Shown here one piece after another: positions 26,799 through 39,383 of a stretch of DNA of 64,000 nucleotides. Source of the DNA: Dasania marina DSM 21967. Its GTDB lineage: Bacteria > Pseudomonadota > Gammaproteobacteria > Pseudomonadales > Dasaniaceae. The position numbers and the translations under genes are program-made. The notes beneath the pieces were generated by a model that made no database searches, was not told the origin of the DNA, and saw only the letters and a program-made list of their open reading frames with translations. The stretch spans positions 122,086-186,085 of the forward strand of contig NZ_KB891587.1 in the NCBI RefSeq assembly GCF_000373485.1, written 5' to 3'. The stretch's first letter is position 1; each line of letters opens with the position of its first letter.

Positions 26799-28601
26799 AT
26801 GAAAGAAATCCTCATCTATCTTGACCCTAATAGCGCACTAAGCCTGCAAGCTCAGATTAGAGAAAAACTCGTAGAAGCTATTATCTCTGGCGTATTGCCC
26901 TGCGATGAAAGGCTGCCCCCTACGCGCAGGCTTGCCGAGATGCTGAAAGTCTCTCGTAACACGGTCATTCTTGCTTATCAGAAACTCACCGATGAAGGGT
27001 ATTTGGAAAGCCGGCCACGCAGTGGTATTTATGTTAGTAATAAAATAATCTCAGATATAAACTCAGCTGCTTTAACCGATAAGCCTATAAGCCCTAAGCA
27101 AATCATTAAGCGGGGCAAAAGTGTTGATTTTAAACAATACGACCGCCCTCTTAATGAATACACTTACCCCTTCATCCATGACTGTATAGACACCGACCTT
27201 ATCCCAACCAACGACTGGCAAGAAGCCTCACGATTAGCCCACAGCTCTAATGCTGCAAAAAAATGGAGTTCTACCGACTTTGAAGAGGATGACCCCGAAT
27301 TTATCGATCAACTGCGAACAAAAGCTCTTGCACGTAGAGCCATAACCGCCAGCCCTGAAGAAATTCTTATTACAACTGGAGCGCACAACGCTCACTATTT
27401 GATAACACAGCTACTGGTCGACGCCGATAGTAAGATTGCGTTTGAAGATCCAGGCGCCCCCAAGCTACGAAATATGCTGAAAAGCAGCGGAGCGACACTG
27501 CACTATCAGCCTATAGATGACAGTGGCATGATAATCGACGACAACATCGATAGCTGCCAGCTTCTTTATTGCACCCCCAGCCACCAAGTCCCTACCGGCG
27601 TCTGCATGACCCTTGAACGCAGAAAGGCCGCAATAGCTAAAGCAAACCAACAAAACATAACCATTATCGAAGATGACGTTGATTCCGATAGCAATTACGA
27701 GGGGCAAGAATTTCCAGCTTTGCGTAGCCTAGATACGCAAGGGCGCGTTATCTACGTCTCTCAATTATCAACCATACTCGCGCCCGGTTTAAATCTTGGG
27801 TTTATCGTCGCATCACCGCCAATTATTACGCAACTCAAAGCGCTTCGAAAAAAAATCATGCCGCCGCCCTCTCTTTTGCAGCAACGCACAGCTTGCACAT
27901 TTTTTAAATTAGGGCACTACAATGCATCGCTAGCCAATATCAAGCATGTACTCTATCAACGATGGAAAGCACTATGGAAAGCGTTAAACTATCATTTTCC
28001 TTTTTTAATTATTACCGCCCCAAGCCAAGGCGGAGCCTGCTGGGTGACAATAAAAAAAGATATCGATATTGATGTAGCCGCATTGGTAGCAAGAGCGAAA
28101 CTAGCCGGCGTGCTTATCGAACCCGGCAATATTTACTATAGCGATTCATCAACCCAAGAAAAAACCCTGAGAATAGGAACCGCTGGTGTTCCTATTGATA
28201 GAATACGCCCAGGAATTAATAAATTAGGTAATTTATTACGTGAGATGACCTCTAATTATCAGGGCGCATTAACGTGCAACGCTACGTCGTGGATATCAGG
28301 GGATAAGCTCAGCACGCTAATGCCAGGCGCAATGCTTAAAATGAAAACAGTTTTTGGTAATAGTTGCCACATTCAATTGCACTCGGACGGCACCATGTCA
28401 GGCGTTGCAGAGTTAGATAAGCTAGAAACCGATAAAGGAAAGTGGTGGATTGAAGGCGACCTCTGGTATCGGCAATGGAGCACTTGGTCTTATGGTGAAG
28501 CTTTAGGCCTCAAAATAGCGATTACCGGAAAAAACATCCAATGGTACAGCCAAGACAATATGCTAGAAGATAGGGGAGAAATAATATTAGCAAAACAATA
28601 G
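26799..28601 (+). CDS. MocR-family (GntR-aminotransferase) regulator lacking the PLP lysine, with extra C-terminal domain
   Basis: 600 residues. A GntR winged helix (about 10-80; LPPTRRLAEMLKVSRNTVILAYQKL, shown here as the motif spanning residues 39-63) is joined by a linker to a fold-type I aminotransferase-like domain (about 115-480). CTPSHQVPTG and EDDVDSDSNYEG are conserved family landmarks. Where MocR proteins have the PLP-binding Lys in the pattern SK-x-L-x-P-x-L-R, this protein reads LSTILAPGLN: Thr325 replaces Lys and Asn332 replaces Arg. Residues about 500-600 form an additional beta-rich domain (LHSDGTMSG, GKWWIEGDLWYRQW). It probably regulates the adjacent hydrolase/transport genes, sensing a ligand by other means than a Schiff base with PLP. 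Start ATG at 26799 has a weak ribosome-binding site. Confidence 0.85.
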   Translation: MKEILIYLDPNSALSLQAQIREKLVEAIISGVLPCDERLPPTRRLAEMLKVSRNTVILAYQKLTDEGYLESRPRSGIYVSNKIISDINSAALTDKPISPKQIIKRGKSVDFKQYDRPLNEYTYPFIHDCIDTDLIPTNDWQEASRLAHSSNAAKKWSSTDFEEDDPEFIDQLRTKALARRAITASPEEILITTGAHNAHYLITQLLVDADSKIAFEDPGAPKLRNMLKSSGATLHYQPIDDSGMIIDDNIDSCQLLYCTPSHQVPTGVCMTLERRKAAIAKANQQNITIIEDDVDSDSNYEGQEFPALRSLDTQGRVIYVSQLSTILAPGLNLGFIVASPPIITQLKALRKKIMPPPSLLQQRTACTFFKLGHYNASLANIKHVLYQRWKALWKALNYHFPFLIITAPSQGGACWVTIKKDIDIDVAALVARAKLAGVLIEPGNIYYSDSSTQEKTLRIGTAGVPIDRIRPGINKLGNLLREMTSNYQGALTCNATSWISGDKLSTLMPGAMLKMKTVFGNSCHIQLHSDGTMSGVAELDKLETDKGKWWIEGDLWYRQWSTWSYGEALGLKIAITGKNIQWYSQDNMLEDRGEIILAKQ

Positions 28602-29001: not shown

Positions 29002-31530
29002 CTAGGGGCATAATGCAGAAATCTTGTCCAACTCAATGGCAGTATTACCCCAGGCAATTTCGTCGTTATCACTAAAGTGATAAAAAACCATATCGTTGGG
29101 GAATAAGACTACGCTAATGCCTCCGAAACCAGCCATGTACGGTACCCATTTAGCGCCACTACAACCGTAGTCATGAGTAGCCTGGTCGATATCGTAGTAC
29201 CAAAAGCCATTGTTGTACTTATCAGCACTACTGCCCGCACTCAACCCGCCAGAACCTAGGTTTAAAGTGGCATTGACCATGGTGCTATCAAGAGTTTGAA
29301 TGCCATCAATTTTGCCCTCGGCCTTATTAAGAAACTCCCCTAATTTCACTACGTCATCACGCACATAAACTAAACCAAATCCCGTATGCGCTTGTGAAGC
29401 TGCATCTTGTGTACGCAAACTTGTGTATGTGGTGGGGCTGAGCCCTAAAGGCTTATATATCTCATCCACGACTACGTCACTGAAAAAATCAGCGCCACTA
29501 CCGGCTATGCCTTGATAGTAAACATTCATTGCTCGGCCTAGCAAGTAAGTGTCTGAAGTGTGGTATACAAACGTATTCCCTGGCGTGGTTTTATAAGGGT
29601 AGGCGCAGGCAAAGCTCGCCTTGTCTGCGTGCGTAGTCTTAAAGAAAAAGTCATCTAGCTTGGTTTGTGACGCCTCATCTGCATGAGAAGTAGAAGAGGT
29701 GTAGTTACCCGTAGCCATATCCATAGCATTTTCGAAGGTAGTGCTGGCCCACTGAGAGCCGTAACACTCGCTAACATAATCATCTATGCCTAAGGTGCGC
29801 TGTGTGCCTGCATACTTTTGCTCTAAACGCATTAAACCGTAAGCGCCATTCACTGATTTAGCAGTGGAGTAAGACGGTACATTCATTACTTCACAGAAGG
29901 GGTAGTCGCCATAGCGGGTGCTGCAACCACCGGAGTAGTGAACGCCATTATAAGCTACGCCATAGATGGTCATATCAGCCGCAGTTATATCGCTGCCAAT
30001 ATTACTCGTCACTACACCATTACCAGGGTAGTCCGTTGCCAATGCCGAAATGGGTTTAACGGGCATACGACGCGCCACTTCATCCTCGTAATTGGACTTG
30101 ATAGTGCTCGCTCCAGTAACGCTGTAATCCGAGTAGCTGGCACTCAGCTTACCCCAAAAGTTAACTTTCATATAAAGACAAGTTTCTGAGGCTATTTGAT
30201 AAGACACATTCGACACGGAGCCGTCATCTTTAAATAAGAAAGTCATTACCCCGTTCCAAATACAGTCATTATTTCGTTCTTGCAAAGAAAATGGAAAGGA
30301 CACACGTGAATAGCCGTTATCACTATCTTCATTCCATACTCTACCGGGCTCAAGAATGTAGGCCCAGGAAGTATGCTCGTCCTCGTATAGACCACGAGTA
30401 ACGGGAATAAAGTGGGTGCCGTGCTGCACAAACTCAAACTCAAACTCAGGCAAATGCTCAGCATCTGGGTAGTACTGTAAATTATTATCGCCCCCTACCT
30501 CGGTAGCGCTGCCGTAGGTGTATTCACCACTGAGCGTGAGCTTGCCTTCAAAAGTATTGCTTGGGTTAGCGGCGTTAGCAGGAACAGCGTAATTGCTGTA
30601 ATTCATAAGGTTAAGCGTGCCGCTGCCAGTCATAAAGCTGTAGCCAAGATTGCTACGGCTAACGTTGCCATCACCGGTAAAGGGGTCGTAAATGGAACCG
30701 CCTCCGCCATTATCGGGCACACCTGTGCCGCTAACATTCACCGTATAGGGGTTCTCGTCACTGTCATTGGAAGCAATGCTCAGCGTGTCACTGAAAACGC
30801 TTTCGGTAGTGGGTTCAAATTTAATACCCACGGTGCAATTGTTGCCTGCGGTAACAGTACTGCTGGAACAAGTGTCAGATACCACGCTGAAAGGGCTGGC
30901 CAAACCAGTAAGGCTACCTATATTGAGGTTCGAATCACCATTGTTGGTGATGGTTAATGTATTGGTTGCATTGCCGTCCACAACAACCGCGCCAAAAGAG
31001 CCTGAGCCGGCCACATCGATCTCTGGCCCGGAACCACCACTGATGGGTGTACCTGTCAGCGTGATGTTATCGCCATAGCAATAGTTGCCGTACCAAGTGT
31101 ATGCGCGCAATCGCAGCTGCACATTGGGATTGTCGTCCAGCCCGGTGGACACACTGGTGGTGTCGAAAGAACCATCGTCACCGCCATCGGTAATCCAATG
31201 TAAAATATTCCAAGAGGTACCGCTGTTGGTAGAATATTCAGCATAACAAAAATCGTAATAGACTAAATACAGTGCTGCTAGATCCATAGACAAGCTGACA
31301 CTTTCATAACCTTCGGTGGAAACAGCAATAACACCTTGCCGCAAGCCATCAGTACGCATGGAGTAATTACCCGCATAATAATTGGCGGCATCGTAGCCGT
31401 CGCCACTTATGCTCCAGTTGCTGTATTCACCGTCTTGAAAATCTTCGCTAAAAATGGTGTCTGCTTGGACGGGTAATAAACAGCCCCAAAGCAATGCCCC
31501 CATAGCGGTTAAATATTTTTTATTAATCAT
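29002..31530 (-). CDS. Exported SxxK serine hydrolase (beta-lactamase-like) with N-terminal ASH-type domain
   Basis: 842 residues with a Sec signal peptide (cleavage near VQA, residue 23). Residues about 24-165 look like a jelly-roll adhesion/carbohydrate-binding domain. About 168-270 is an ASH/choice-of-anchor-D-type Ig-like domain (GPEIDVAGSGSFGAVVVDG, TLTITNNGDSNLNIG). A Gly-rich linker follows, then a 560-residue core shared with the protein at 37518. In the core, Ser555-T-A-Lys558 is the SxxK nucleophile motif and YHTSD the likely second motif of a class C beta-lactamase/esterase fold. Reaction unknown: hydrolysis of an amide or ester is inferred. It faces the MocR-like gene and has its own upstream direct repeats. 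Confidence 0.8.
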   Translation of the reverse strand: MINKKYLTAMGALLWGCLLPVQADTIFSEDFQDGEYSNWSISGDGYDAANYYAGNYSMRTDGLRQGVIAVSTEGYESVSLSMDLAALYLVYYDFCYAEYSTNSGTSWNILHWITDGGDDGSFDTTSVSTGLDDNPNVQLRLRAYTWYGNYCYGDNITLTGTPISGGSGPEIDVAGSGSFGAVVVDGNATNTLTITNNGDSNLNIGSLTGLASPFSVVSDTCSSSTVTAGNNCTVGIKFEPTTESVFSDTLSIASNDSDENPYTVNVSGTGVPDNGGGGSIYDPFTGDGNVSRSNLGYSFMTGSGTLNLMNYSNYAVPANAANPSNTFEGKLTLSGEYTYGSATEVGGDNNLQYYPDAEHLPEFEFEFVQHGTHFIPVTRGLYEDEHTSWAYILEPGRVWNEDSDNGYSRVSFPFSLQERNNDCIWNGVMTFLFKDDGSVSNVSYQIASETCLYMKVNFWGKLSASYSDYSVTGASTIKSNYEDEVARRMPVKPISALATDYPGNGVVTSNIGSDITAADMTIYGVAYNGVHYSGGCSTRYGDYPFCEVMNVPSYSTAKSVNGAYGLMRLEQKYAGTQRTLGIDDYVSECYGSQWASTTFENAMDMATGNYTSSTSHADEASQTKLDDFFFKTTHADKASFACAYPYKTTPGNTFVYHTSDTYLLGRAMNVYYQGIAGSGADFFSDVVVDEIYKPLGLSPTTYTSLRTQDAASQAHTGFGLVYVRDDVVKLGEFLNKAEGKIDGIQTLDSTMVNATLNLGSGGLSAGSSADKYNNGFWYYDIDQATHDYGCSGAKWVPYMAGFGGISVVLFPNDMVFYHFSDNDEIAWGNTAIELDKISALCP

Positions 31531-32229
31531 GTTTTAAGCCTCGTAGTTGCAAGTATTTATTTTCTTGAGTCCTTATACTTTTTATCCATTACTTGTCATT
31601 TGTATCGACCGCAGTGCAGTGCATCTAATTTGATACATAACGCAACACTATAAAGAGGCTAGCTAATTGAAGGGTGATTAGATAGATGCCAGAATCACAT
31701 AAGGATAGGTCCAGATTGCTGCCAAGGTGCAGCTTTAAGATTGAACTTTATCGACTTCTTGGCTTTTAATCGCCAAGCATCTCACTTACCTGTTTTAAAG
31801 TTATCAACAGCTCATGGGTATGGTGTTTGACGTTATAAAAGCTCGTGATACTGACACTTCTTCCTTTTTTCGAAATTATAATTTAATCAGAACAAGTGAG
31901 TTATTGAAGTAATACTTAACGGTGTATGACATTGTTATTTTGGTGGCGCTATAGACAATTGCAATAGCTAAGGCCTGATCTTACAGATAATTGTTTTTAT
32001 CCATAACTTGTAGATAAATACTGAACTATTGCAACATATTATCCGCGCTTTCTCGATCCAAGCCTAAAATAACTTGCCAGTATAAAAATATGACAACCTA
32101 AAAACCACACCCCCATAAATACCCAGAGGAAATACGCAACATTTAAACATTATTGCATCTCATCTTTCAGGAAAAACAGAAAGTATGAAACGACCTAAAT
32201 TATAATTAAAAAACATAACTCAACTACAC
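31531..32229. other. 699-bp noncoding region upstream of the 842-residue hydrolase
   Basis: AT-rich with no convincing open frame. It must hold the hydrolase promoter. Notable items are the 22-bp-spaced direct repeat (31685-31713) and the inverted repeat CTTGGC/GCCAAG around TTTTAATC near 31760-31779. The half next to the MFS gene shows no recognisable terminator and nothing else I can name. Confidence 0.5.
31685..31713. promoter_or_regulatory. Direct repeat, candidate MocR box upstream of the hydrolase gene
   Basis: GATGCCA (31685-31691) and AGGTCCA (31707-31713) start 22 bp apart; both continue GA, so CCAGA is shared. The reverse complement of the second, TGGACCT, resembles the CTGGAC core reported for the MocR-family regulator TauR. 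It lies about 155-183 bp upstream of the gene start. This copy is the weakest of three. Confidence 0.4.
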
Positions 32230-33462
32230 CTATAACACGTTAACTTTACTCTCACGGCGGTCTAATAACAGCGCAGGATATATAGCCAGTAACAAACAAA
32301 CAAATAGGGCTACTACCGCTAAAGTAATAAGAATTTTATAGTCATCATCGCCCAACACTAACGCTGCAATCATAGGCCCTGAAGCCAACCCCAACTTTGA
32401 GGCCAAGCCCGCTAACGCAGCCATTTGCCCGGCCTTATCAAATTCTGCGACCATGCCCAACAGATAGGCGATAGAAAAGGCCCACGTAATACCGACGACG
32501 CAGTTCGCTACAAAATATACCCATTTGTATTCGCTATAGAGTAGACACCCAGTACCCACTAGCGTGACAAAAACTGCAATGACTATAGGGATGGTTCTAC
32601 CGCACTTTGTTGACGCCAAGAAGACCACCAACAGCGACCCCAAAATACCCATCCAAGCAGCAATACCTAAAGAGGAGCTAATAAAAGCAATGTCTATATT
32701 ATAATTTTTACCCAGCCCTACAATATAGGCATAGGGCCCCATATTTGACGCCTGAAATAAAAATATAGCTAACAACACTAGCAGCACAGGGCTGCGATAT
32801 AGTTTAATCTTTTTTATACCCAGCTGAAGCTCAACCGTCGCTTTACGCACAGGGAACGCGGGTAAAAAAGGCAATGTAAGCAAGGCTATTGAGCTAAATA
32901 CGATCAAGACAAAAAATACTATTTGATGGCCATAATCTGGAATCAACCCCGGTATCAGCATAACACCCAAACCACCACAACCAAATTGCACCAGCAAAAG
33001 ATAACCAAATGCTTTGCTTGCGTTTTTCGTTCTGGCGGTAATTGACAAGCCTATTCCAACTATTAACCCACCTACCGAACCGTGTACAAAGCGAACAGCA
33101 ATTAAGGACTCTGCATTCGACACAAACATAGATATTATATCTATCGAGATCAGCAACAATAGCAATATCAAACAGACAAATTTCCACTTTATTCTTTTAA
33201 CGATAAAAATAGAAATAAAAGCGCCTAATGCAGCACCATAAATATTTGCTGAGCCAATGATACCCGCCGTTTTCTGGGAGAAGCCTAAGCCCTCTACCAA
33301 ACCAGAAACTAAAACGGGCATGATATTAGCGTAAAACAAGCCTGCCGACGTTAAAAAAGCCAGAGCAATATTTACCGCCGTTCCTGTCTCTGAGAAACAA
33401 TAACGACCACTCTTAATCTCTACGTTTACACTTTCATTATTATCTTTATCATGCTTATTCAT
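32230..33462 (-). CDS. MFS transporter
   Basis: 410 residues with about 12 hydrophobic helices and a 28-residue hydrophilic N-terminus. The loop after helix 2-3 (FIVKRIKWKF) and GHSVGGLIVGIGLS-like VHGSVGGLIVGIG fit the major facilitator pattern. It lies in the inner membrane and probably carries a small solute, either importing the substrate released by the neighbouring hydrolases or exporting a product. The ligand cannot be predicted. The terminator at 33652 separates it from the receptor gene, so it should have its own promoter in 33463-33650. The ribosome-binding site is weak. Confidence 0.85.
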   Translation of the reverse strand: MNKHDKDNNESVNVEIKSGRYCFSETGTAVNIALAFLTSAGLFYANIMPVLVSGLVEGLGFSQKTAGIIGSANIYGAALGAFISIFIVKRIKWKFVCLILLLLLISIDIISMFVSNAESLIAVRFVHGSVGGLIVGIGLSITARTKNASKAFGYLLLVQFGCGGLGVMLIPGLIPDYGHQIVFFVLIVFSSIALLTLPFLPAFPVRKATVELQLGIKKIKLYRSPVLLVLLAIFLFQASNMGPYAYIVGLGKNYNIDIAFISSSLGIAAWMGILGSLLVVFLASTKCGRTIPIVIAVFVTLVGTGCLLYSEYKWVYFVANCVVGITWAFSIAYLLGMVAEFDKAGQMAALAGLASKLGLASGPMIAALVLGDDDYKILITLAVVALFVCLLLAIYPALLLDRRESKVNVL

Positions 33463-33707: not shown

Positions 33708-36092
33708 CTAAAAACTATACGTTAGTGCCACGCCAAGGGTTCTAGGTAGCACGATATAGTCCTTCGAAGAGTTGCCTAAAAAGTTTTGTGAAGGCTCTGT
33801 ACCCATATAACCCTCACTTAACGTCCCCGTCACTCCCTCTTCATTAGTGAGGTTCTTAGCAAACAGCGTCGCGGTCCAGGAGTCAGCAATCAACTGAGTA
33901 GACGCATTCCACAATTGAAAGCCATCAAAGTCAATATCAAACCTAGGGTCACTACCAATAGAGTTACGTGACGCCGACTGATAATAAACATGCAATCGTG
34001 ACGTCCAGTTGATGCCGCTATCCAACAACTGTGAGTAGTCTGCAGATGCACTCAGGATATTTCTCGCGGTGCCTGGTAGCTGCTCACCTTTTTCGGCAAT
34101 AGCACCACCGGTAGGGCTAAAAACATCTTCTCTAAGTTCAGAGTCTACATAAGCATAACCAACGGTATAGTGTAGATCATCCGTAAGCATCCCTTCAATC
34201 TCAACCTCCACCCCTTGGCTTCTGGCTTTGCCTGCGTTTATTGCCGCATAAAAACCCCATATAGGTGTGGCTGTATTTAACTGCGCGTCATCCCAGTCCA
34301 TATAAAACAATGAAACGTTATACTTCATCAGCCCTGGTGAGCCTTTAAAACCAACTTCATAGTTAATAACAGAATCTGAATCATATTGCTGCCAAGCAGG
34401 ATCTTCGGCAAAGCCTCCGGTTAAAGGCACCGCATTGGCGCCGCCTCGTCTATAGCCCTCTGAAACAGTAATATAGGCTAACTGACTAGGACCGAAATCC
34501 CATGAAACATTACCTTTTAACAAAACACCATCATCCGATATTTCAAACTCCGGTGTAGCAGGGTTGCTCCAGATAGGGGTGTCCATGGTGGTTTTGTTAA
34601 CAAATTTATTGTCAAAATAACGCGCCCCTAGCGTCGCCCTAAACTCATCGGAGATATTGAAAGTAAGCTCACCAAAGACAGCCTTATCTTCAAAGTCTGT
34701 TTTTCTATCGTAGGCAAAGTCGATCTCCGTTGAAGTGTCGGCGCCAAAAAAGTGCCCATACCAACTAGGGACGGTATTAATATAATCCGACCAACCCGGC
34801 ATGCTGTTGGTCTGAACAGCACCCATTTCCTGATCCATGTAGTAAAGACCAGCCGTCCAATCCACAAAACCATCGGTATTGGAGACTAAACGAAATTCCT
34901 GAATAACCGCCTCATCTGAATAGCTGCGCTCAGATTTAGCGATGGGACGTGGGGTGCCGCCATACAGGGTGGTAAACCAAGCAAATTTGGCATAAAACCC
35001 TGTGTTCTCACTAATGCTCTCACCCGTGTGCTCGTAGGCCGACGTACTGGAGACCAGCGTGGCAAAGCCCATATCATATTCCATCTCCAGCATCGTCATA
35101 TCGACATCTCTGGAGCTAGGCTCTAGTTGAATAGAACCATTTTCATAATCATCATAAGCCTGCTCAACACCGGTCACCCAATGGGTGCCTGTGGTTTGCT
35201 GACGACGCCCGCCAATTTCATCGGATTGCTGCTGATACGTTAGCAGCGCTTTAAATTCATCACTGGGTTGAAATAATATAGAGGCCTTGCCATGCCATAT
35301 TTCAACCGTATCGGCATCTTCTTTTTCGGTATAGATGGGATCGCCATTGGTAATATCCCCACCCGTAGCGATTGGCGCACCCTTCTCATCCAAAGCGTAA
35401 ACATTGGTGTAATCGGTGATGCCGTCGGCGTCGATCATGCCACCAGAAAGTCTAACGGCTATTTGATCATTAATAGGCATGTTTAATACTAAATCAGAAG
35501 ACCAGCTAAACCCCTCAGAGCCTTCCGTCTGGCTATAAGAACCGGAGGCCTTACCGTAGAACTCCTCTGTTTCTGGCTGTTTCATAATATAGCGAACCGT
35601 ACCCGCTAGCGCCCCAGAGCCATAGAGGGTGCCTTGCGGCCCACGTAAAACCTCAACACGCTCAATGTCTTTAAGAATGAAGTTGGCATATAAAGGGCTG
35701 TCATTAATATAAGTGGATACAGTAGGCACTGCCGATAGGGGGATATCACCATTGCCACCACCGTCGACATTCATACCGCGAATCATAATACCGTTGATTG
35801 CCCCAGAGTTTCGATAGCCTCTGTCCACTACATTGACGCCGGTCATAGAGCGCATCAAATCTGTAGCATCGGTTATTTGTGCGGCCTCAATACTGTCACC
35901 ACTTACGGCGGTAATATTGTAAGGGATATCCATCACCATTTCGGCGCGTCGAGAAGCGGTAACAATCAATTCTTCCATGCCTGCAGCATAGGTTGGGCTG
36001 GCAACACCAGCCATTAGGACATTTACTGATGCCAAGGTTAAAGACATCATCCGGCCATACGGAAATTTATTTTTATAATACTTAGATTTCAT
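33708..36092 (-). CDS. TonB-dependent outer-membrane receptor
   Basis: 794 residues from ATG at 36092, supported by GGGGA 6 bases upstream; a TTG four codons earlier is unlikely. Signal peptide cleavage is predicted near TYA. The TonB box region is EELIVTASRR, the plug domain (about 50-165) contains IRGMNVDGG and VEVLRGPQGTLYGSGALAGTVRY, and a 22-strand barrel ends in Phe (LTYSF). It resembles receptors for organic substrates rather than classic siderophore receptors, but ligand is not readable. A 22-bp direct repeat lies about 92-120 bp upstream. It likely imports the compound that the adjacent hydrolases process. Confidence 0.93.
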   Translation of the reverse strand: MKSKYYKNKFPYGRMMSLTLASVNVLMAGVASPTYAAGMEELIVTASRRAEMVMDIPYNITAVSGDSIEAAQITDATDLMRSMTGVNVVDRGYRNSGAINGIMIRGMNVDGGGNGDIPLSAVPTVSTYINDSPLYANFILKDIERVEVLRGPQGTLYGSGALAGTVRYIMKQPETEEFYGKASGSYSQTEGSEGFSWSSDLVLNMPINDQIAVRLSGGMIDADGITDYTNVYALDEKGAPIATGGDITNGDPIYTEKEDADTVEIWHGKASILFQPSDEFKALLTYQQQSDEIGGRRQQTTGTHWVTGVEQAYDDYENGSIQLEPSSRDVDMTMLEMEYDMGFATLVSSTSAYEHTGESISENTGFYAKFAWFTTLYGGTPRPIAKSERSYSDEAVIQEFRLVSNTDGFVDWTAGLYYMDQEMGAVQTNSMPGWSDYINTVPSWYGHFFGADTSTEIDFAYDRKTDFEDKAVFGELTFNISDEFRATLGARYFDNKFVNKTTMDTPIWSNPATPEFEISDDGVLLKGNVSWDFGPSQLAYITVSEGYRRGGANAVPLTGGFAEDPAWQQYDSDSVINYEVGFKGSPGLMKYNVSLFYMDWDDAQLNTATPIWGFYAAINAGKARSQGVEVEIEGMLTDDLHYTVGYAYVDSELREDVFSPTGGAIAEKGEQLPGTARNILSASADYSQLLDSGINWTSRLHVYYQSASRNSIGSDPRFDIDFDGFQLWNASTQLIADSWTATLFAKNLTNEEGVTGTLSEGYMGTEPSQNFLGNSSKDYIVLPRTLGVALTYSF

Positions 36093-36183
36093 TATTATCC
36101 CCAAATCATCTAAATGGAATCGGCACAGTGCCGACTAAATTCTCTACGAGTGTTAGATATTACTCGCCAAAATCACAATAAGT

Positions 36184-36212
36184 AGATCCAAAGTTCAACT
36201 CACTTGGGTCCA
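36184..36212. promoter_or_regulatory. Direct repeat, candidate MocR box upstream of the TonB-dependent receptor
   Basis: AGATCCA (36184-36190) and GGGTCCA (36206-36212), starting exactly 22 bp apart on the same strand. The spacer holds CAACTCACTTGG, also present downstream of the MocR-like gene at 28657-28668. Two helical turns between half-sites is typical of MocR-family direct-repeat operators. Confidence 0.5.
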
Positions 36213-36361
36213 ATCTCATGCACCAACACCAACCTCAACTATCATAGAACCAATATAGAAAAACCAACAAAATCATATAGCTATCAAGATATACAATTTA
36301 CATTATTATTAAAATTACGCGCCTTGCCAGCGACTAAGTCATCGACACTAGCCTTCAAAAA

Positions 36362-36416: not shown

Positions 36417-37265
36417 TCAACTTTCCGGCTTTTTTAACTCGCCTAGCTCATTTAATATATTGCACTTAAAGTCTTTATCGGCATATTGTGGAAACTGAAC
36501 CACACTGTCCCTAAAACTTTTAAGCGGTTGGGTTAAACCATGCCAACCATTTTTACGCACATGCCGAACATACTCTAGGTCAAGATCCATAACTATGACC
36601 TCTCTCGTACTAGTCGCTTGATGTATAACTTCACCACCAGGGCCGGCTACTATAGAGCCTCCCCAACCGATCTTACCTGCGACATTAATGTCCACAAAAT
36701 AACACTGGTTAGATGCCGCGTTAGTTCTAGCAATTGATAGCTCAATGTCTCTATCCACGGTATTAGTCATTGTTGCGTGCAGTATTACTTCGGCCCCCAT
36801 ACACGCCAATGTTCGCGTTGTTTCGGGAAACCACATATCGTAACAAATACTAACACCAAACCTGCCTACCTCGGGAACATCGAAAACAACAAATTCATCA
36901 CCCGGCGTCACCCCCGCTTCATAAGGGAAAAACGGGAACATCTTACGATAACGCGCAATAACTTCACCCTCAGGATTTATTACGGGCGTAGTATTATAAA
37001 TTTTACCGTCCTTACGCTCAAAAATAGACCCAGGTAATATCCATACTCCCAGTTCTTTAGCCAACTCACAAAATGCATCCTCTTCAGGGCCCGGTAATTC
37101 AACAGCATTCTCCAGAGCAGGCCCAAAAACACCTAACTCGCCCATCATAATCATCTTTACAAATGGAAATCTAGACTTGGTTTTTCTCATCTCATCCATA
37201 ACCAAATCCATGTTATTTTTTGCTTCCAGCTCTAGCTGCAAACCCGCAACCATAAACCTAGACAT
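36417..37265 (-). CDS. Nitrilase-superfamily carbon-nitrogen hydrolase
   Basis: 282 residues from ATG at 37265, chosen because GAGG lies 6 bases upstream; ATG at 37277 is the outer alternative. The catalytic triad is clear: Glu43 in MMGELGVFG, Lys108 in ARYRKMFPF and Cys141 in VSICYDMWFPE. Members hydrolyse amides, carbamoyl groups or nitriles. No signal peptide is present, so it is cytoplasmic. It is divergent from the lipoprotein hydrolase at 37518 and shares a 22-bp direct repeat with it. Which branch (amidase, N-carbamoyl hydrolase, Nit-like) is not settled by the sequence. Confidence 0.88.
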   Translation of the reverse strand: MSRFMVAGLQLELEAKNNMDLVMDEMRKTKSRFPFVKMIMMGELGVFGPALENAVELPGPEEDAFCELAKELGVWILPGSIFERKDGKIYNTTPVINPEGEVIARYRKMFPFFPYEAGVTPGDEFVVFDVPEVGRFGVSICYDMWFPETTRTLACMGAEVILHATMTNTVDRDIELSIARTNAASNQCYFVDINVAGKIGWGGSIVAGPGGEVIHQATSTREVIVMDLDLEYVRHVRKNGWHGLTQPLKSFRDSVVQFPQYADKDFKCNILNELGELKKPES

Positions 37266-37374
37266 AGACCACCTCATTTTTCACAACAAAAGAAAGACTT
37301 AAAAATAACACCGCCAAAAACGGGCAATGCAACCACAGTCGCACACACAATACATAAGCCTACAAATCAAAAGT

Positions 37375-37403
37375 AGGTCCAGTTAACGATACAGATAGAC
37401 CCA
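37375..37403. promoter_or_regulatory. Direct repeat, candidate MocR box in the nitrilase / hydrolase divergent promoter
   Basis: AGGTCCA (37375-37381) and AGACCCA (37397-37403) start 22 bp apart in the 252-bp divergent spacer, about 110-140 bp from each start codon. A further TGGACTT lies at about 37413-37419 on the same strand. The arrangement matches the sites at 31685 and 36184. Confidence 0.5.
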
Positions 37404-37517
37404 AAATTTATGTGGACTTGACTTGATAAGCCCTTTTAAAATCAATACTTGATTATGCAAAATAAAAACCATTATTCGAGCAGACAACACGCCCTATAGA
37501 AGTCAAGGACAAAAACA

Positions 37518-39383
37518 ATGATTAAAAAAGTACTGCTTGCCGGCCTACTAATCACAACATCAGCCTGCGCCTATAATCACAAGCTTATTAACATGGACGT
37601 TATGGAAAATAATAGTGGCCGAATTACCGCAATAACTAACGAGCTAAACAGCTCTAATCAACAAGGTTTTATTTATGGTAGTTTTAGCGGATCTGGAAAT
37701 ACGGATAGAAAAGCACTAAGCCATGACTTTTTATTAAGCTCTGACAGGCTAACATTAATGGATTACAGCCACTACAGCATTCCTAAAGCGGCAGCTAACC
37801 CAACTAATAATTTTCAAGGAAGGCTAAGCTTGCACGGCGAAAATAAAAACGGCAAAGCTATAGAGGTCAGCAAGTTTAATAATAAGCAATATTACCGCAA
37901 CGCCAATCACCTCCCCGAATTCGACTTTGAGTTTATTCAACATGGCACTCACTTAATACCCATACAGCGCGGCTTAATCGCCAGCTCACACGGTAATTCT
38001 GAATACATACTCGAACCAGGCCGCGTTTGGAATGAAGCAGGTGACTTAGGCTATTCACGGGCCGCCCTGCCCTTCTCCCTACAAGAAACTAACGCTAACT
38101 GCACATGGAACGGCGTTCTGACATTTTTATTTAAAGATGATGGCAGCATCTCAAATGCTGCTTATCAATTCGCAGGGGAAACCTGTTTTTATATGAAACT
38201 CAACTTACGGGGCAAACTCGAGGCCTCTTATACGCCGCACCTTATTAAAAAGCGCGCAGAGACTATAGCCAAATACGAGCAGGAAGTTGCCAACAGGATA
38301 CCCACGCAACCCATCAAAAATCTAATAAATAGTTATCCTCAGGTGCAACTAAAATCCTACAATAGCCAAGCAGGAATAGGCGCCGACGCTGATGAAATAT
38401 CCATTTATGGTGTGCTTTATAAAGGCATACACTATGTAGGAGACTGTAAAACACGTTTTGGCCTCTATCCGTTTTGCGAAGTTTTGAATGTGCCATCTTA
38501 CTCTACGGCAAAATCGGTTGCTGGCGGCTATGGCCTTATGCGATTGGAAAAGCTATATCCCGGTAGTAAAAATTTACTTATTTCAGACTATGTCCCTGAG
38601 TGCTCTGGCGACAAATGGCAAGGCGTCACCTTTAAAAACGCATTAGACATGTCTACAGGAAATTATATTTCTACCCAGCTAGGGGAAGATGAAGCCCTAA
38701 AATACAAGTTAAATAACTTCTTCGAAGCCAGTACCCATAAACAGCTTATCGACTTTGCCTGTGGGCATTTTCCACACAAAAGTAAGCCGGGAGAAGTCTT
38801 CAGCTATCACACTTCCGACACCTACGTACTTGGCCGCGCAATGCACAATTTTTATCAACAAAAAACAAACTCCAGCAAGGATTTCTATAACGACATTATT
38901 GTTGACGGTATCTGGAAGCCCTTGAATCTAAGCCCAACCACCTATACCTCGAAGCGCAGCTACGATGAAAGCGCACAAATTTTTACCGGCTATGGACTCA
39001 CCTTTGTGCGTGATGACATCCCCAAGCTCGCCCAGCTATTAGCCAACAAAGGAAGCATTGCGGGTAAGCGCTTATTAGATGCCGAAATGATAACAAACAC
39101 CCTCCATTTACCACCGACTGCAGGACTGGATATTTTAAACGCTGAAGACAGTGCCTGGCGCTACAACAATGGTTTTTGGTATGAAGACCTTGCCTATACC
39201 GACACCTTAGACTGCACTAAGGGCAGCTGGGTGCCTTATATGGCTGGCTATGGCGGCATAACTATTGCCGCCCTGCCCAATGGTATGATTTATTATCATT
39301 TCGGCGATGCCAACCACAAACAAACTGGCTGGATTAATGCCGCGATGGAGCTCAATAAGATATCGCCTCTCTGCCAACATTAA
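37518..39383 (+). CDS. SxxK serine hydrolase (beta-lactamase-like), probable lipoprotein
   Basis: 621 residues. The N-terminus [17 protein letters not shown] is a short signal with a possible lipobox (Cys17), although -3 is Thr rather than Leu. Residues about 45-620 match the core of the 842-residue protein at 29002. A shared module of about 280 residues ([39 protein letters not shown]) precedes the hydrolase domain with Ser329-T-A-Lys332 and Tyr430 in SYHTSDTY. It lacks the ASH-type domain. It is probably anchored in the periplasm or outer membrane and hydrolyses the same class of substrate. It is divergent from the nitrilase-like gene and followed by uvrA after 138 bp. Confidence 0.8.

Follow-up and report, generated by a model that had tools for sequence, protein, structure and literature searches.

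A 600-aa MocR-type regulator of Dasania marina DSM 21967, encoded in the stretch of 64,000 nucleotides analysed here (the window), lacks the lysine that forms the Schiff base with PLP in MocR proteins and carries an additional C-terminal domain (Table 1). The protein is a variant of MocR and not a new kind of system. The reading that we favour, at about even confidence, is that it is a working, MocR-descended DNA-binding regulator that forms no PLP Schiff base and reads its signal otherwise, perhaps via the extra domain.

Table 1. Features of the regulator gene, its neighbours and the predicted operators (positions within the window)
Feature	Position	Strand	Description or basis
MocR-type regulator, 600 aa	26799..28601	+	wHTH ~14-80, linker, AAT-like domain ~121-485, extra C-terminal domain ~489-600
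Codon 220, GCC (Ala), at GabR Tyr205	27456..27458	+	GabR 4n0b alignment
Codon 294, GTT (Val), at GabR Tyr281	27678..27680	+	GabR 4n0b alignment
Codon 325, ACC (Thr), at GabR Lys312 (PLP Schiff-base lysine)	27771..27773	+	GabR 4n0b alignment
Codon 332, AAT (Asn), at GabR Arg319	27792..27794	+	GabR 4n0b alignment
Extra C-terminal domain, 112 aa	28263..28598	+	Common to 36 other MocR-type proteins found and to small, apparently secreted proteins
Beta-lactamase-like protein, choice-of-anchor D domain, 842 aa (cluster c5)	29002..31530	-	Beta-lactamase match below Pfam's cut-off
Weak candidate operator, period 22	31684..31715	-	Upstream of 29002-31530; score 8.7, chance level by score alone
MFS transporter (cluster c4)	32230..33462	-	Clustering and Pfam
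TonB-dependent receptor (cluster c1)	33708..36104	-	Clustering and Pfam
Predicted operator, ATTGGACCCA-N12-TTTGGATCTA, period 22	36183..36214	-	Before TonB-receptor gene; matrix score 17.4
Carbon-nitrogen hydrolase (nitrilase superfamily)	36417..37277	-	Pfam; triad Glu, Lys, Cys by eye
Predicted operator, period 22	37374..37405	-	Between CN-hydrolase gene and divergent 37518-39383; matrix score 16.6
621-aa protein, divergent from CN-hydrolase gene	37518..39383	+	Beta-lactamase match below Pfam's cut-off

Residue changes in the cofactor site

The frame of the regulator gene is open for 600 codons and the homology is full-length. Pfam detected a GntR winged helix (PF00392, E 5.4e-16, residues 17-79) and an Aminotran_1_2 domain (PF00155, E 1.5e-11, residues 165-474), the aminotransferase (AAT)-like fold being judged by sequence only. 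GabR (4n0b) aligns over residues 5-476, and the best named model, NCBIfam NF052282 (PdxR; residues 16-476), was passed narrowly, with 322.7 bits against a cut-off of 320. These results uphold the preliminary description of the protein as a full-length descendant of MocR with an intact winged helix. The fold predicted for the whole protein from its single sequence had a mean pLDDT of 32 and was useless for fold assignment.

The motif at the cofactor site reads YVSQLS-T325-ILAPGLN332LGF. Its threonine and asparagine, as well as an altered DDYDSE motif, had been pointed out in the preliminary description, and the frame reading and the GabR alignment bear this out; in the last motif, V294 stands at Tyr281 and D292 keeps Asp279, the contact to the pyridine nitrogen. 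That description had also considered a lysine displaced into the same site, and none was found, because the only lysines within residues 280-360 are 281, 347, 351 and 352 and the alignments are ungapped at the motif. It overlooked the C-terminal domain (residues ~489-600) and the loss of Tyr205. Arg at 458 and a PSHQVPTG stretch are retained.

According to the sections of a MocR survey drawn on here (PMC6677901), every MocR cluster conserves Asp279 and Lys312, and an aromatic residue at 205 seems to be a requirement. Measured against the features of MocR proteins, the regulator has the winged helix, the AAT-like domain and the Asp279 equivalent (D292), and lacks the Schiff-base lysine (Thr325) and the aromatic residue at 205 (Ala220). 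The change at Tyr281 alone is weak evidence, since this position is described in the same sections as often being Ala, Val or Ile outside the GabR cluster (PMC6677901). Judged from these residues, the regulator cannot form the Lys-PLP aldimine, and we infer that PLP binding has been lost; the Asp279 equivalent and Arg458, both of which remain, count against this.

The additional domain and its bearers

The extra domain gave no match in Pfam or NCBIfam, and a comparison with PDB chain sequences yielded a single line (E 1.1); with a profile that contains the window row, the window copy scores E 1.9e-39. Its core, GxWW...W..W, is also found in small secreted-type proteins and in an adenylate-cyclase-like protein (L063), in which the domain follows a membrane segment (name and segment by eye). 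The small proteins with an apparent signal peptide, as judged by eye, are L057, L061, L062, L175, L177, L178, L180 and L182, and a caspase-like protein (L183; name by eye) also bears the domain. In six of the small proteins (L057, L175, L177, L178, L180 and L182), the core takes the form WW...C..W/F..WY and is accompanied by a Cys pair; this pair was not seen in the regulators, whereas the proteins that carry it are extracytoplasmic by eye. L057, the one small secreted-type protein searched, matched neither a Pfam family nor, beyond chance level, an NCBIfam model. A scan of genome contigs with the single regulator protein gave two weak loci, L057 among them, and no relatives were confirmed on viral contigs with either the whole-protein or the domain profile. 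Fold prediction from two sequences gave a short helix and eight strands (pLDDT 59.6), and because Foldseek returned no match to this predicted fold at E <= 0.001, no fold was assigned. The occurrence of the domain in apparently secreted proteins and after a membrane segment is in keeping with a role in ligand binding.

MocR-type proteins with an AAT-like domain and the extra C-terminal domain (hereafter extended) number 37, namely 20 in the order (19 of 390 genomes; threshold 1e-80), 14 in another family, f63 (14 of 217 genomes; threshold 1e-140), and 3 in the phylum (3 of 398 genomes), where the two proteins of the window's genome were not recounted. Lys312 is present in 24 of the 37 and is replaced in 13 (Q in three, R in three, A in three, P in two, T in one and S in one); Arg319 is present in 20 and Asp279 in 25. 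The nearest clade without the domain has Lys, Arg and Asp in 28 of 28 rows, and among all aligned homologues without the domain, 62 of 65 have the lysine, the others being L019 (R), L086 (R) and L096 (N). The Asp279 equivalent is missing in 6 of the 13 lysine-free extended proteins (L080, L082-L085 and L170); these six f63 proteins have also lost the equivalents of Lys312, Arg319 and Tyr205 and have kept the extra domain. Four f16 proteins (L042, L044, L045 and L050) keep the lysine and have lost the preceding Ser and the equivalents of Arg319, Asp279 and Tyr281. Extended regulators outside the window's order include L173, which is outside its class too, and L176, with Ser for the lysine. The second extended protein of the window's genome, on contig C17, is 43% identical to the window regulator and keeps the lysine; for the one other genome of the genus (G001), a single extended protein is listed, of the C17 type.

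The wHTH of the window regulator is 75% identical to those of 16 lysine-bearing extended relatives (59 clear-consensus columns), whereas the AAT domain and the extra domain are 56 and 47% identical, respectively, to the consensus of lysine-bearing relatives. At 38 AAT positions that are identical across all 45 comparison rows (two all-gap columns excluded), the regulator keeps 32 residues, and five of its six differences concern residues other than the lysine. The extra domain has kept 10 of the 17 positions that are invariant in the lysine-bearing relatives.

In a maximum-likelihood tree of 76 rows, from which the six PLP-site columns were removed, at least six changes between Lys and not-Lys are needed within the extended rows and none within the 28-row clade; an earlier tree of 62 rows needed five. 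The changes were counted on the best tree only, with gain and loss not distinguished, and are read as losses since proteins outside the extended set have Lys as a rule. The outgroup rows deliberately include three lysine-free proteins without the domain, so that loss rates are not to be taken from the outgroup. By branch-length share, the probability that all six changes fall on extended branches is 0.053, which makes the link between the domain and lysine loss suggestive only. A control weakens this link: further AAT positions that do not vary in the 28-row clade change a mean of 4.6 times in the extended rows, and 18.5% of them change at least as often as Lys312. The PLP residues are thereby ruled out as the fastest-changing of the domain, and the loss of the lysine appears to be part of a general loosening of the AAT domain, since other fixed positions change too. 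In the extended set, the constraint on the AAT-like domain as a whole is looser or different.

The extended set was not upheld as a single clade: 32 rows form one group, and the four f16 proteins and L176 lie outside it on long branches. The domain may therefore have been present early and then lost in the other clade, or may have been gained more than once. The end branch of the window row is long (1.08 changes per column), so that its exact place in the tree is unsure.

Gene cluster and predicted operators

The regulator gene converges on a minus-strand run of genes for the beta-lactamase-like protein, the MFS transporter, the TonB-dependent receptor and the carbon-nitrogen (CN) hydrolase, the last of which was assigned by Pfam and by eye because the clustering slice stopped at 35000. 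Thirty regions with an extended regulator were compared, of which one is the C17 region of the window's genome and 29 come from elsewhere; neighbour families were formed by BLAST clustering, and the name of each rests on one or two of its members. CN-hydrolases and TonB-dependent receptors are each found in 23 of the 30 regions, TPR-sulfotransferases in 19, MFS transporters in 12 and beta-lactamase-like proteins in 7; these counts are lower bounds, as many regions are cut short by the end of the contig or by the ~6-kb limit of the flank. The window has the cluster with CN-hydrolase and TonB receptor that characterizes the set. Among the lysine-free regions (n = 10; without L170 and L176), 8 contain a CN-hydrolase or TonB receptor, and each of the 10 has a gene from one or more of the five cluster families. 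No pyridoxine genes were found by Pfam scan among the nine neighbours of the window regulator; the protein passes the PdxR model NF052282, but its predicted targets are the TonB-receptor and CN-hydrolase genes.

A direct repeat, ACTGGACTMA-N13-ACTGGCCCTA, lies upstream of receptor and hydrolase genes. The operator pattern gave 42 sites in 27 of the 30 regions (none at L103, L115 and L119), all with a period of 23, and a site is present in 9 of the 10 lysine-free regions. For these 42 sites, the pattern was restricted to periods 22 and 23, following an earlier 19-23 pattern, and the position before a cluster gene was checked for part of the sites only. With a first matrix (27 sites from lysine-bearing loci, gaps 8-17), the window sites did not stand out from resampled sequence; the window site scored 15.1, below an unrelated place at 15.7, and the null mean maximum was 15.6. 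A second matrix, built after the first had failed, used the 42 sites from lysine-bearing and lysine-free loci, with the window excluded. At periods 22-23, this matrix ranked 36214 (17.4) and 37405 (16.6) as the top two sites on both strands of the window, the next scores being ~8.7 at three places, including 31715; at periods 14-40 the same two sites still lead, followed by a score of 12.4. In resampled windows searched at periods 22-23, the best score was at least 17.4 in 6 of 100 and the second best at least 16.5 in 0 of 100, whereas at periods 14-40 a best score of at least 17.4 occurred in 51 of 100. The best score alone is thus not rare, and the case for the predicted operators rests on the joint pair and their location and not on either score. 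With the second matrix, neither the regulator gene itself nor the MFS gene was found to be preceded by an operator match. In a scan of the whole genome, the pattern matched 42 times, versus 16 in a reversed control, so that many of these matches may be due to chance.

The 23-bp operator period of the extended set was not found in the window, where 22-bp repeats precede the two genes: all three window candidates have a period of 22, versus 23 in all 42 sites of other loci, although the pattern allowed both. At the C17 copy, period-23 sites precede the hydrolase and receptor genes of that cluster. A further, strong period-23 site on contig C17 (L186:3511-3543, score 25.8) precedes L186:3666-6233, which encodes a second beta-lactamase-like protein of the choice-of-anchor-D type that is, by eye, a distant homologue of the window's beta-lactamase-like protein (29002-31530). 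Because this operator and gene lie ~38 kb from the C17 regulator, the C17 regulon seems to be wider than its cluster.

Possible modes of action and relation to known MocR proteins

The identity of the wHTH, together with the predicted operators before genes typical of the set, makes it most likely that the window regulator still binds DNA and controls the cluster. Presumably as a dimer, it would bind the predicted direct repeats, whose TGGACC-type half-sites are spaced by 22 bp, upstream of the TonB-receptor and CN-hydrolase genes and perhaps also of the beta-lactamase-like gene, and would thus control these genes and, with them, the uptake and hydrolysis of a nutrient, probably of the amide or nitrile type. 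The inducer would be sensed without PLP chemistry, most likely at the extra C-terminal domain, and the old aminotransferase domain would be retained as a scaffold and dimer interface. What makes the extra domain the sensing candidate is that the whole set carries it and that it is otherwise found in apparently secreted proteins; the stronger divergence of the window copy (compared with the AAT domain and the wHTH) counts against this assignment. More broadly, we propose, tentatively and with some doubt, that in this set of regulators the vitamin-B6 sensor has given way to the C-terminal domain, which would bind the inducer, with the aminotransferase domain reduced to a scaffold without cofactor; on this view, the lysine was lost on six or more occasions, and the window's copy has also shifted its operator spacing by one bp.

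If the regulator still bound its operators and had lost induction, it would keep the cluster permanently repressed or activated. This is the behaviour of EnuR Lys302His, which, in the portions of the EnuR study cited here (PMC8739950), cannot bind PLP and is a constitutive repressor, and the diverged C-terminal domain of the window protein is in keeping with it. Such a signal-blind state is nevertheless unlikely, as the at least six changes, together with the presence of cluster genes in all 10 lysine-free regions and of an operator in 9 of them, fit a kept function better than control lost repeatedly. EnuR Lys302His, like the window regulator, is a MocR protein without the PLP lysine; it is an engineered single change that blocks induction (PMC8739950), whereas the window regulator is natural, has several PLP contacts changed and carries an extra domain. 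Similarly improbable is that the old pocket still serves as the sensor for a non-covalently bound ligand, such as free PLP, a PLP-amine adduct or some other molecule. The retention of D292, the PSHQVPTG stretch, Arg458 and most of the strictly conserved AAT residues (32/38) argues for this, but the equivalents of Lys312, Arg319, Tyr205 and Tyr281 are all gone, and the absence of Asp279 from 6 of the 13 lysine-free proteins indicates that the pocket is not kept across the set.

The window's genome encodes both the lysine-free regulator and the lysine-bearing C17 paralogue, and operators of the same type are predicted at both clusters, so the paralogue might supply the PLP site in a heterodimer. 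We regard this as very unlikely: the operator spacing is 22 bp in the window against 23 bp at C17, and for none of the 12 other genomes that encode a lysine-free extended protein is a further extended one listed (thresholds differ and several of the genomes are incomplete), which makes heterodimers unlikely in general. In favour of a decaying pseudogene are the long end branch of the window row and its differences at strictly conserved positions other than the lysine, but 600 codons without a stop or frameshift despite that branch, along with the kept wHTH and AAT residues, leave decay hardly credible.

With the MocR subfamily (GabR 4n0b, PdxR and EnuR), the window regulator shares a GntR winged helix joined to an AAT-like domain, a direct-repeat operator (predicted here) and uptake or catabolic neighbours; unlike these proteins, it has no equivalents of the Schiff-base lysine, Arg319, Tyr205 and Tyr281 and has an extra C-terminal domain of ~112 aa. 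The cited portions of the EnuR study report the lysine in 278 of 278 inspected EnuR-type proteins and describe MocR induction as using the internal aldimine, as in EnuR and GabR (PMC8739950). MpaR of Pseudomonas aeruginosa, another MocR-type protein, has a predicted PLP pocket, and its predicted cofactor-contact Lys and Tyr are required for activity, according to the excerpts of its description used here (PMC10790758); both are absent in the window regulator. A term search of the main text of a MocR regulon survey (PMC5320631) gave no occurrence of TonB, nitrilase or amidase, and a literature search, with subscription papers mostly outside its scope, returned no title on lysine-free, PLP-independent or extra-domain MocR proteins or on MocR with TonB and nitrilase.

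The recurrent absence of the lysine, with the cluster and mostly also the operator kept, would reveal how a sensor built on a cofactor is abandoned. As relatives of one regulon occur in nature both with and without the lysine, the role of PLP in MocR signalling is directly testable. The extra domain, which is found in several families of the phylum and, in the members tested, is covered by neither Pfam nor NCBIfam, is now tied to a predicted regulon.
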